DNA of 64,000 nt, from positions 1 to 64,000 of the forward strand of contig KQ960853.1 in NCBI GenBank assembly GCA_001553355.1, read 5' to 3'. Numbering within the stretch: position 1 is the stretch's first letter; each line of letters starts with the position of its first letter. The notes under the pieces were generated by a model. That model was not told where the DNA came from and did not search any database. It saw only the letters and a program-made list of their open reading frames with translations. This document shows, one piece after another, positions 12,541 through 23,436 of this stretch. The stretch comes from Veillonellaceae bacterium DNF00626 (GTDB lineage: Bacteria; Bacillota; Negativicutes; Veillonellales; Dialisteraceae). A program made the position numbers and the translations under genes.

Positions 12541-12571
12541 GCAAAAGAAAAGAAGCAGCTTTCACTGCTTC
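12541..12571 (-). terminator. Terminator of the B12-gated non-coding RNA
   Basis: GAAGCAG and CTGCTTC with a 6-nt loop are followed on the minus strand by TTTTCTTTTGCC. It closes the non-coding unit about 50 bp before the pnp promoter. Confidence 0.85.
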
Positions 12572-13100
12572 AAAAAGGGGGGAGGTAAATTTACCTCAAA
12601 TGAGATTATAACAACATCAATGATGTTATTAACTAAAAGAGGGGGAGAACGATGATGGTTTTCCCTGAGACCACCATCGTTCCAAAGGAGTTGAACTATG
12701 TAAAAGAGATCTACTCTTCTATCGAGTTACACAGTTCGATAAGTAATATATGTCAACTCCCGAAGGAGTTTTTCTAAAAAGGAGAACGATGACATTTCCC
12801 TCGTATCATCGTTCGGAGAAAAGTGAACCCGTGAGTTTCCTCACAATATATGTAAAGCTATAATAGCATTACATCCAATAAATATATATCAGCTCCTATG
12901 TAGGAGTTCTTTTAAAAGAGGAACGATGACATTCCCTGTTATCACCGTTCAAAAGATGAACCATGAAGAATTCCTATAAATCCTTCTATATGTAAAACCA
13001 TTTGGTATTTACATCACGATTAGAGGAATAGAATAGCTTTCCCTTGCTATCCTATGGGTGTATTTTTATCATTCTGCAGTCTCCCACCACAGTTTGCTAT
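12541..13100 (-). ncRNA. Candidate modular structured RNA with AGGGAA hairpin loops
   Basis: No convincing gene lies here. On the minus strand three modules repeat: GAACGATGA-type stems at 12921-12950, 12784-12814 and 12647-12682, all with AGGGAA in the loop, plus a related hairpin at 13028-13055 with loop AAGGGAAA. ATGTAA...TTACAT hairpins, a C(UUCG)G hairpin at 12755-12770 and a final 16-nt palindrome at 12582-12597 lie between or after them. Three of the four AGGGAA stems hold one imperfect pair, and each is G-U on this strand but A-C on the other. Two tandem cobalamin riboswitches lie upstream on the same strand and a terminator closes the unit. GGA triplets number about thirteen. A CsrA-type sponge is one reading. 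The true role is unknown. Confidence 0.65.
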
Positions 13101-13134
13101 AAAAAAATCCACCTCTGCGTCAGAAAAGGTGGAT
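13101..13134 (-). terminator. Terminator of cobalamin riboswitch 1
   Basis: ATCCACCT and AGGTGGAT form an 8-bp stem followed by seven T on the minus strand, 32 bp beyond the aptamer. It is the likely expression platform. Confidence 0.9.
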
Positions 13135-13166: not shown

Positions 13167-13352
13167 CCTTCCCATCACTCGCAGGTCAAACAGCAGCCAA
13201 AACAGGCAGTTCTCCTGACTCTGCTTCATCGTGCCTTCGGTCTTCCCAATTATCTCAGTGACATCATCGAATTTACTCTGCATTACAGTGGCGGGACCGT
13301 GTCGGTCTTTCACCGACTTCCCTATTAAGTCCTTTCGGACACCTGTTTCAAA
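13167..13352 (-). ncRNA. Cobalamin riboswitch 1 (downstream member of tandem pair)
   Basis: The minus strand carries the conserved core GGTCCCGCCACTGTAA and the B12 box AGTCAGGAGAACTGCC, ending with GTGATGGGAAGG. It is close in sequence to riboswitch 2, from which it is separated only by a terminator. No protein gene follows before the terminator at 12541. An adenosylcobalamin ligand is expected from the family. Confidence 0.93.
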
Positions 13353-13393
13353 TATGAAGTTGTTCTCCTCATAACTGAACCCTTATAACCATA

Positions 13394-13423
13394 AAAAATC
13401 TCTTTACACGAACGCAAAGAGAA
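13394..13423 (-). terminator. Terminator of cobalamin riboswitch 2
   Basis: TCTCTTT and AAAGAGA with a 10-nt loop, followed by TTTTTT on the minus strand. Confidence 0.85.
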
Positions 13424-13437
13424 TGAGTATTTTATCT

Positions 13438-13622
13438 CCTTCCCATCGCTCGTGGGTCAATCGGGATTATCCTTAGGCAGTTCTCCTGACTCTGCTTCAT
13501 CACGCTTCCTGTCTTCCCAATTTCTCAGTGACATTCTCGGATTTGCTCTGCATTACAGTGGCGGGACCGTGTCGGTTTTTCACCGTTCTTCCCTATTAAG
13601 TCCTTTCGGACACCTAAGTCTT
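13438..13622 (-). ncRNA. Cobalamin riboswitch 2 (upstream member of tandem pair)
   Basis: Same core and B12 box as riboswitch 1 (GGTCCCGCCACTGTAA and GTCAGGAGAACTGCC), ending CGATGGGAAGG. It begins about 15 nt after the promoter at 13637-13665, so transcription starts right at the aptamer. The two copies look like a tandem duplication. Confidence 0.93.
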
Positions 13623-13636
13623 CTTCAGTTGCTTAT

Positions 13637-13665
13637 ATCTTAGCATTATTTGGTTACCCTGTCAA
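13637..13665 (-). promoter_or_regulatory. Sigma-A promoter of the tandem-riboswitch RNA
   Basis: TTGACA (13660-13665) and TAAGAT (13637-13642) with a 17-bp spacer. It is the only good promoter I see for the riboswitch pair. Confidence 0.8.
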
Positions 13666-20456: not shown

Positions 20457-20643
20457 CCTCCCCATCGCTCGCAGGTATAACGGTGATTCTTAGACAGATA
20501 GTTCTCCTGGCTTAAGTTCATTGCCTACATCGCCTTCCCGGTTACCCAGTGACATATATGATATAGACTCCCTTTACAGTGGCGGGACCGCTCCGGATTT
20601 ATCCGGATTCTCTTTTATGCTTTCGCATCTGTCAGATATATGA
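20457..20643 (-). ncRNA. Cobalamin riboswitch 3, leader of mutA-mutB-meaB
   Basis: The core GGTCCCGCCACTGTAA and the B12 box AGCCAGGAGAACTATC are seen on the minus strand. The aptamer ends CGATGGGGAGG. The terminator at 20404 follows. After it, two AGGAGGT sites 14 nt apart lead into a short GTG frame of 30 codons before mutA, which might be a leader peptide. Confidence 0.93.
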
Positions 20644-20667
20644 AATTGTCTAAACAACTACATTTTA

Positions 20668-20838: not shown

Positions 20839-21345
20839 ATGGCTGAGAGCGAATTAAATAGGGAAAAAATCATGACTGAAGCCCTTCAGTTAAGCAAACA
20901 ATTTGAAGAAATAGACGGTCGTCGTCCCAGATTATTTTTACCGGAAATGGAAGAAGATGACGATAAAGAAAATCGTAAATTGGCTGCTACTGCCTTTGCA
21001 GACCAAGGATGGGATGTAGATGTCGGCCCACTACTTTCGCCTGAAGCATCTGCCCAAACAGCAGCAGATAATGATGTGCATTTTATTTTCTACACGTCGA
21101 AAAGTCCTGCTATGAAAAAAACAATCATTGCTATGGCTCAAGCCTTAACGCTTTTGGGACGAGATGATATTCTTATTGCCGTGCACCCGGCAAAAAAAGA
21201 AGATAAAGATTCTTTTTTCCGCTATGGCGTCATTGCTGCATTTGACGAAAATACCGCATTTGAAGACATGAGTCTCACCATGCTTCGCGTCTTGGTCGCA
21301 ATGGCAAAAGAAGCCGAAGATCCATCGCCGAGTTATGACTATTAA
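20839..21345 (+). CDS. Standalone B12-binding-domain homolog without cobalamin motifs
   Basis: The 168-residue protein aligns along its length with the last 150 residues of MutB encoded next door: [29 protein letters not shown] and GRDDIL match almost word for word. The cobalamin contacts are gone: DGHDRG reads DDDKEN, the SSL motif reads TSK, and CIGG reads AVHP. The fold is probably kept but cannot bind cobalamin in the usual way. AAGGAGGAAA precedes the ATG. It is divergent from mutAB and shares their upstream region. A role as mutase partner, MeaB decoy or regulator is inference. Confidence 0.85.
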   Translation: MAESELNREKIMTEALQLSKQFEEIDGRRPRLFLPEMEEDDDKENRKLAATAFADQGWDVDVGPLLSPEASAQTAADNDVHFIFYTSKSPAMKKTIIAMAQALTLLGRDDILIAVHPAKKEDKDSFFRYGVIAAFDENTAFEDMSLTMLRVLVAMAKEAEDPSPSYDY

Positions 21346-22457: not shown

Positions 22458-23168
22458 TTATTTTTTCCAAAGCTTTTCCATAATGGTCGGATAAAGAGCA
22501 CTCAAATGTCCTTGAACCTGATTCAAAATAGCGATAACGAGAGCCGGTTCAAAGTGATCAAGGCCTGCCGGAATGCAGCAAGTCATGATTACGTTACCTG
22601 CTTCATCTACATTGTACTTAAGCATGCGATATTGATCATTCAATTCGTTCAAGTATTCACAAACGAATGCTTTCTTTTCAGCTGTTACAATGTTTGCTGC
22701 TACCTGTACCTGGAGCATGGTGTATACACTGTCGTCCAAAAGAATCATGAACGGAAGGTTATTTCCGGCTACGGGCAAGTTGCTGCGGAATGCCTGAGCA
22801 TGCACATCATTTTCAAAATCCTGCAAACCAAATCCTTCGATTTTTGCTTCTTCTAAATACTTTTTGAATGCTTCAACTTTTTTAATACCAACCTGTACTT
22901 CCGGTGTTGCTGCTGCTTTAACTTCGTTCTTCTTGTCTGCCATTTTTAAGTCTCCATTTCTCTGGTCCTGCCAGAACTCAAATAATAAACGACTGATGTC
23001 TTTGTACTCAGTATTCTTGTGAGAAACATCCCAATCCTTTGCTTGATGGACTTTAAAACGAAGTAACTTGATTTCTTTCAATAGATTTAAATATAAATTC
23101 TTATTGACCGGAACCACATTTCCCTTGGTCGCCTCCACACGACTAATTTCATCTTTTAGCTTAACCAA
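22458..23168 (-). CDS. YbjN-like protein, paralog 2, under a cobalamin riboswitch
   Basis: I start at a TTG at 23168 because GGAGG lies 7 bases before it. The frame is open further upstream only because it runs through the riboswitch. This gives 236 residues. A second possible start (ATG at 22940, with GGAGA upstream) would give the 160-residue core alone. Residues 1-75 are a charged helical segment absent from the paralog at 21502-21936. Residues 85-235 form the YbjN-like domain. Function unknown. Riboswitch control suggests a job in cobalamin-dependent metabolism or in responding to its lack. Confidence 0.6.
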   Translation of the reverse strand: MVKLKDEISRVEATKGNVVPVNKNLYLNLLKEIKLLRFKVHQAKDWDVSHKNTEYKDISRLLFEFWQDQRNGDLKMADKKNEVKAAATPEVQVGIKKVEAFKKYLEEAKIEGFGLQDFENDVHAQAFRSNLPVAGNNLPFMILLDDSVYTMLQVQVAANIVTAEKKAFVCEYLNELNDQYRMLKYNVDEAGNVIMTCCIPAGLDHFEPALVIAILNQVQGHLSALYPTIMEKLWKK

Positions 23169-23220
23169 TGTTGTTCCTCCGTTTCGGAAACAAGCAATTT
23201 TTATTTTAGCCGGCTTACAG

Positions 23221-23250
23221 AAATAAAAACTGCCGAATAAGTTAGACAGT
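23221..23250 (-). terminator. Terminator of cobalamin riboswitch 4
   Basis: ACTGTC and GGCAGT (one G-U) with a 10-nt loop are followed by TTTTTATTT on the minus strand, between aptamer and gene. Confidence 0.75.
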
Positions 23251-23275
23251 ACCGCTATTGCATATACCATCCCTA

Positions 23276-23400
23276 CTATTCCGCAGGCATGTACATTGAA
23301 AACAGGCGGTATCCGACTCGGGTCACCCCTTACGGCTGTCAAACAGTTCCGGATTTGCACCGGATTCTCCACACGAGCAAAAGCTCTGTCTCCCTTTGAA
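23276..23400 (-). ncRNA. Cobalamin riboswitch 4 (short variant)
   Basis: GGTGCAAATCCGGAACTG, then GACAGCCGTAAGG and the B12 box GAGTCGGATACCGCC are read on the minus strand. It is shorter than the other three aptamers and uses a variant core (GACAGCCGTAA rather than CCGCCACTGTAA). This may place it in a different cobalamin subclass. Confidence 0.85.
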
Positions 23401-23436
23401 ATTGTTTCCCAAACCTTTTCCGATTTGGTTATTCAC

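Follow-up and report, generated by a model that had tools for sequence, protein, structure and literature searches.

The minus strand of the window (the whole 64,000-nucleotide stretch analysed here) carries a B12-gated non-coding RNA which, by its sequence, is a member of a real, free-standing family. We consider it reasonably probable that this RNA is a trans-acting sRNA, induced at low B12 and assisted by Hfq, that blocks translation of the B12-dependent operon leading from succinate to propionate. The argument is built on the anatomy of the locus, its conservation, the covariation of its stems, its linkage to tandem riboswitches, its complementarity to ribosome-binding sites and its co-occurrence with methylmalonyl-CoA mutase and Hfq. 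The source genome (G000) comprises 1.59 Mb in 64 contigs and is 99% complete. On the minus strand the genes mcmA, mcmB, meaB and msrA are followed, from 13665 to 12552, by one promoter-like site, two cobalamin riboswitches each with a terminator, and a non-coding segment of ~550 nt with its own terminator, and then by pnp (Table 1).

Table 1. Features of the B12-gated RNA locus and its predicted seeds in the window.
Feature	Position	Strand	Remarks
Promoter-like site, TTGACA-17-TAAGAT with extended -10	13637..13665	-	
Cobalamin riboswitch aptamer 1	13459..13632	-	RF00174, 88.3 bits
Terminator 1	13399..13422	-	
Cobalamin riboswitch aptamer 2	13188..13361	-	RF00174, 102.7 bits
Terminator 2	13107..13134	-	
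Module 0 hairpin, loop AAGGGAAA	13028..13055	-	
Predicted seed 1, UGGUUCAUCUUUU	12951..12963	-	13 contiguous pairs (two G-U) with GGAAGAUGAACCA of the split mutase ribosome-binding site
Module 1 hairpin, loop ACAGGGAA	12921..12950	-	Module model match
Predicted seed 2, GGUUCACUUUUCUCC	12815..12829	-	Pairs with GGAGGAAGAUGAACC of the mutase ribosome-binding site, one mismatch
Module 2 hairpin, loop CGAGGGAAA	12784..12814	-	Module model match
Predicted seed 3, AGUUCAACUCCUUUG	12683..12697	-	
Module 3 hairpin, loop CUCAGGGAAA	12647..12682	-	Module model match
3' hairpin (AAUAACAUC..GAUGUUGUUAU)	12609..12631	-	Dialister homologues have a similar hairpin ahead of their 3' end
Small hairpin GAGGUAAAUUUACCUC, then C-rich tail CCCCCUUUUUGAA	12574..12597	-	Partly kept in homologues
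Terminator-like site ending the RNA	12552..12571	-	Before the pnp promoter-like site
UGGUUCAUC			Stretch of the RNA's predicted seed

An earlier note, made from the sequence of the window, had described a stretch without a convincing gene behind two cobalamin riboswitches, closed by its own terminator before the pnp promoter, and four hairpins with AGGGAA-type loops. Both descriptions hold. The first agrees with the Rfam matches (both aptamers lie well above the RF00174 gathering score of 31.5 bits), the list of open reading frames and the terminator-like site, and the four hairpins lie at the coordinates given there, with AGGGAA in every loop. This motif occurs four times in the segment against 0.24 expected in dinucleotide shuffles. 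The segment folds more stably than its shuffles, with z = -7.6 for the minus strand and z = -6.3 for the plus strand. One module model finds three of the four hairpins, two of which lie in visibly repeated units of ~135 nt. The statement that GGA triplets are about twice as frequent as by chance was not borne out, since we counted 13 against 10.3 expected in shuffles, or 24.6 per kb against 20.3 per kb for the minus strand. No match to Rfam 15 above the gathering score was found for the body of the RNA, either in the window or in 12 homologue loci.

Strong support for an RNA structure is provided by the stems. In 26 distinct stems, compared over nine positions, 98% of the positions are paired, versus 54% with the arms swapped, and none of 10000 shuffles reaches 98%; several pair types occur at each of the nine positions. 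The stems were chosen as the best stems around GGGAA, and GGGAA sites in the RNAs were therefore compared with those of the genome as a control: 31 of 36 RNA sites lie in hairpins of at least 9 pairs, versus 31 of 942 genome sites. The loops have 8-10 nt with a constant GGGAA, while the stems vary freely. Many of the hairpins are preceded by a CU-rich strand, which reads GUUCAUCUCCUU in most Dialister and f2 copies and is altered in others. The idea that the GGGAA loop pairs with UUCCC, either within the RNA itself or in the leader of the mutase, was considered and dropped; by eye, such partners are present in some genomes and absent in others. A small protein encoded by the segment was likewise rejected. 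There is no minus-strand ORF longer than 24 aa, reading frames are not kept because loop length shifts by 1-2 nt between modules, and no convincing gene was seen on the strand opposite the RNA.

Homologues of the RNA, with conserved and covarying stems, were found in 12 further genomes from two Veillonellales families (f1 and f2), nearly all of them directly after tandem cobalamin riboswitches. The linkage of modules and riboswitches in Negativicutes, raised in the earlier note, is thus supported. A DNA search returned one weak relative in the genus (L002), whose plan consists of a TTGACA promoter-like site, two riboswitch-terminator units, GGGAA modules, a conserved 3' end and a terminator, followed by a glutathione peroxidase gene. 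Tracing tandem cobalamin riboswitch pairs led to homologues in G002, G004, G005, G007, G008, G010, G011, G012, G015, G018 and G021; for G011, G012 and G021 only the RNA-proximal aptamer was among the riboswitch matches listed. A module covariance model (R1), searched at E<=0.01 against 61 genomes of the order, gave matches inside this RNA only, and no isolated module copies elsewhere in the genomes; the copy in G004 falls below the threshold and was recognised by eye. In 250 genomes of the class R1 revealed no carrier beyond f1 and f2, and a pattern scan of the genome collection returned the same lineages plus one unrelated match. A separate element in G010 (L068 9788-10400, plus strand) consists of another cobalamin riboswitch, a terminator, a GCAGGGAA hairpin and a second terminator, lies just before the mcmA riboswitch and is perhaps a paralogous B12-gated RNA. 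In the literature we found no paper combining a cobalamin riboswitch, a non-coding RNA and Negativicutes, and none on Dialister sRNAs; a survey that looked for novel structured RNAs in 26 genomes describes other motifs from Veillonellales.

Cobalamin riboswitches usually precede genes, and the RNA lies between its riboswitches and a gene. It might hence be read as a long 5' leader or a remnant, with the riboswitches acting on the gene downstream and the hairpins being inert or the locus decayed. We regard this as highly improbable: the RNA has its own terminator, its stems covary strongly, and the genes downstream differ between genomes (pnp, glutathione peroxidase (gpx), tRNA-Leu, a cysteine desulfurase-like gene) without an evident B12 logic. 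As these neighbours vary, the RNA together with its riboswitches forms the conserved unit.

The direction in which the riboswitches act can be predicted from their folding. The 5' arm of terminator 1, UCUCUUU, could form a helix with AAGGAGA, located immediately 3' of the P13 hairpin, and this pairing is a candidate antiterminator. In riboswitch 1 of G000, G003, G008 and G010, an alternative pairing of 7-10 bp joins the 3' side of P13 (or the sequence just beyond it) to the terminator 5' arm, which fits riboswitches that end transcription in their B12-bound state; for riboswitch 2 the candidate antiterminators are harder to make out. Of 86 cobalamin riboswitches in a reporter study, 38 were functional; every one of these acted by repression, and 37 had terminators (PMC9600662). 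Given the terminators, the candidate antiterminators of riboswitch 1 and the repression seen in the reporter study, the RNA is expected to be produced under low B12. Transcription would start on the minus strand at about 13630. With adenosylcobalamin present, either of the tandem riboswitches would stop it at its terminator, and under B12 scarcity read-through of both terminators would yield an RNA of ~1.1 kb or processed pieces of it.

The earlier note had proposed a B12-controlled sponge RNA. The B12-gated, modular and conserved non-coding RNA contained in this proposal is supported, and capture of CsrA or EutV is not. The csrA gene was found neither in the source genome nor in any of 60 relatives, in a search that does find CsrA in three control genomes. 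An ANTAR response regulator is present once per genome in 30 of 30 relatives, including those that lack the RNA, and a mechanism of the Rli55 type was therefore tested. The ANTAR recognition element consists of double hexaloop hairpins (PMC3369931). No dual A1/G4 hexaloop hairpin site was detected, in agreement with the earlier note, and single hexaloop hairpins number 13 against 7.8 expected. A decoy for EutV (Rli55/EutX type) was rejected on these grounds. In the source genome the ANTAR regulator gene (L079 6020-8013, minus strand) is adjoined by a histidine kinase gene.

A different protein partner is suggested by gene content. Hfq is encoded in 12 of the 13 genomes that carry the RNA and in none of 48 other genomes of the order (Fisher 7e-12, a value that ignores phylogeny, with perhaps 3-4 independent losses). 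The only carrier without Hfq is G007, whose genome is 75% complete. In the class outside this order Hfq is frequent, with 80 of 100 sampled genomes encoding it. Probably, therefore, most of the order lost the gene and the RNA-bearing genomes retained it. From this pattern, Hfq probably assists the RNA, and it may dock on the purine-rich GGGAA loops.

Co-occurrence with Hfq could also be accommodated by a decoy RNA, the GGGAA hairpins of which titrate an RNA-binding protein (Hfq or another) at low B12, with the CU-rich strands being incidental. The loop is indeed the most constant element within freely varying stems, and the number of modules ranges from 1 to 5, as in sponges. Against this, CsrA and the ANTAR dual hairpins are absent, and the CU-rich strand flanking the hairpins is conserved as well. 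G012 and G015 carry a single module, which is poorly suited to titration, and a sequence-specific protein would be expected to have isolated module copies at its mRNA targets, whereas the search at E<=0.01 gave none. We consider a decoy unlikely. Base-pairing with ribosome-binding sites with the help of Hfq is the mode of action to which the evidence points more than to a protein sponge.

The predicted targets lie in an operon encoding the succinate CoA-transferase ScpC (scpC being the first gene), a split methylmalonyl-CoA mutase (553 + 130 aa), MeaB and an epimerase; the gene after the epimerase is probably a decarboxylase. Within f1 and f2 the RNA was found in 13 genomes with the mutase and in none of the three without it (G001, G006, G009). 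In G004, G008 and G011 the split mutase is the only one, and the RNA lies 6-10 kb away on the same strand, an arrangement that favours the split-mutase operon over mcmAB as the target. Apart from the seeds in Table 1, UCAUUUUCCUCC(U) in G008, G010 and G011 pairs over 12-15 bases with (A)GGAGGAAGAUGA, the f1 form of the mutase site, and CAUCAUCCUCC in G021 pairs with GGAGGAUGAUG, the f2 form. Upstream of scpC, AAAGGAGAUGG pairs with UCAUCUCCUUU of the RNA in f2. Contiguous helices of 11-14 pairs thus exist in several lineages and are partly lineage-matched. When the site and the RNA were swapped between lineages, a preference of the RNA for its own mutase site was clear in g4 and f2; Dialister RNAs show no own-lineage preference. 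The f2 genomes contain a second cluster of a CoA-transferase and a mutase (L245, L246, L247), and in G021 and G018 the CoA-transferase site of this second cluster (AAAAGGAGATGAC, GAAGGAGATGATG) also fits the RNA seed.

Targets were ranked against backgrounds of ~1.0 Mb of G000 and 0.96 Mb of G012. Corrected for accessibility and averaged across 12 genomes, pairing placed the mutase site first of 811 G000 genes and scpC fifth; without accessibility the cross-genome rank of the mutase was 9th by energy and 59th by z. Single genomes placed the predicted targets only within the top 2-3%: the mutase was 27th of 811 in G000 with accessibility, and scpC in G012 came 16th-17th of 849 when windows of 12-14 nt were used but 128th when they were 16 nt long. 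Tiled windows put the mutase first in several genomes, a result that is biased because these windows were chosen on the target.

Anti-Shine-Dalgarno seeds can pair with many sites, and the complementarity to the propionate operon might reflect just this general character, the same B12-gated antisense RNA having other main targets. In a single genome many sites do pair equally well, for example the targets of the C-rich tail in G000, and a transketolase-subunit-like site tops the list in G012. No gene, however, scores above the mutase when averaged over genomes, and the linkage and co-occurrence of the RNA with the mutase also speak against other main targets. A recurrent second target matching AAGGAGATGAA was rejected, as its exact sites precede no recurrent gene. 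Other main targets therefore seem distinctly unlikely to us.

In the favoured base-pairing model, each module would consist of a CU-rich single-stranded seed followed by a strong hairpin that exposes GGGAA in its loop. The seeds would pair in trans with Shine-Dalgarno regions, with the best support for the split mutase and scpC, and Hfq would help them to cover these regions, such that translation of the succinate-to-propionate operon is blocked.

The window also encodes a second B12-dependent mutase set, mcmA-mcmB-meaB, with its own cobalamin riboswitch and terminator at 20480-20647 (minus strand). The related mutA riboswitch of Veillonella parvula worked in the reporter study, where function means repression (PMC9600662). 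A B12-repressed riboswitch on a B12 enzyme is odd, and perhaps reflects an isozyme switch with the split mutase. As a tentative and rather doubtful extension, an Hfq-dependent multi-seed sRNA might act as a fermentation switch in Negativicutes that use succinate and, without B12, silence the main propionate operon, consisting of scpC-split mutase-MeaB-epimerase and the genes that follow, with mcmAB coming on under its own B12-repressed riboswitch; the GGGAA hairpin would then be a new repeated Hfq-docking module, and the RNA may help to explain why Hfq was retained. At 20839-21345 (plus strand) lies the gene of a 168-aa protein that resembles the C-terminal B12-binding domain of the mutase. 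By eye it seems to lack the DxHxxG cobalamin-ligand motif and has EEDDDKENRK instead, and is possibly a pseudo-B12-binding protein; a relative is found at the same place in L071 (316-813, minus strand). Another cobalamin-riboswitch-like match in the window (23288-23433, minus strand; 31.3 bits, gathering score 31.5) precedes the ORF at 22458-23372, and further weak matches of this kind occur on contigs C24 and C64.

Propionate formation is a health-relevant, B12-dependent process in the gut, to which the RNA would be tied directly, and the model offers a concrete answer to the question of how a cell avoids making B12 enzymes without the cofactor. The retention of Hfq together with the RNA, and its loss elsewhere in the order, makes this group a natural case for what retains Hfq. 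To our knowledge, cobalamin riboswitches that gate non-coding RNAs are otherwise found only in Listeria and Enterococcus; if the model is true, the Dialister-group RNA adds a third, independent lineage whose architecture differs.

Sponge RNAs of the CsrB/RsmZ type also present repeated hairpins with GGA in their loops, but the Dialister-group genomes have no CsrA, and the RNA combines GGGAA loops of 8-10 nt with conserved CU-rich strands alongside. Among the Firmicutes, FsrA, RsaE and LhrC are C-rich anti-Shine-Dalgarno sRNAs with repeated or single CU-rich strands. The Dialister-group RNA shares with them the CU-rich strands complementary to ribosome-binding sites and differs by its metabolite gate and its GGGAA modules. 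EutX of Enterococcus, in which ANTAR dual hexaloop hairpins capture EutV, follows the same plan as Rli55 of Listeria. In Rli55, a structured non-coding RNA lies behind a B12 riboswitch and prevents B12-dependent genes from being switched on when B12 is lacking (PMC8079631). Unlike both, the Dialister-group RNA contains no such dual hairpins, and it belongs neither to the ANTAR-decoy nor to the CsrA-sponge family. Pairing of a riboswitch-linked RNA in trans with a 5' UTR, masking the ribosome-binding site, is described for SreA/SreB of Listeria (PMC8079631); there the terminated riboswitch itself is the sRNA, whereas the Dialister-group RNA would be the read-through product. A further comparison is AspocR of Listeria, an antisense RNA that a B12 riboswitch terminates when B12 is present. 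Full-length AspocR represses a B12-dependent catabolic pathway, probably by base-pairing, and works in trans in tests; it lies opposite its target gene pocR and represses a regulator (PMC8079631). The Dialister-group RNA has in common with AspocR the B12 riboswitch with a terminator ahead of a non-coding RNA, and under the favoured model it would act much as AspocR does. It differs in lying not opposite its putative targets but unlinked or loosely linked to them, and in having two riboswitches, repeated short-seed modules with GGGAA hairpins and a link to Hfq.
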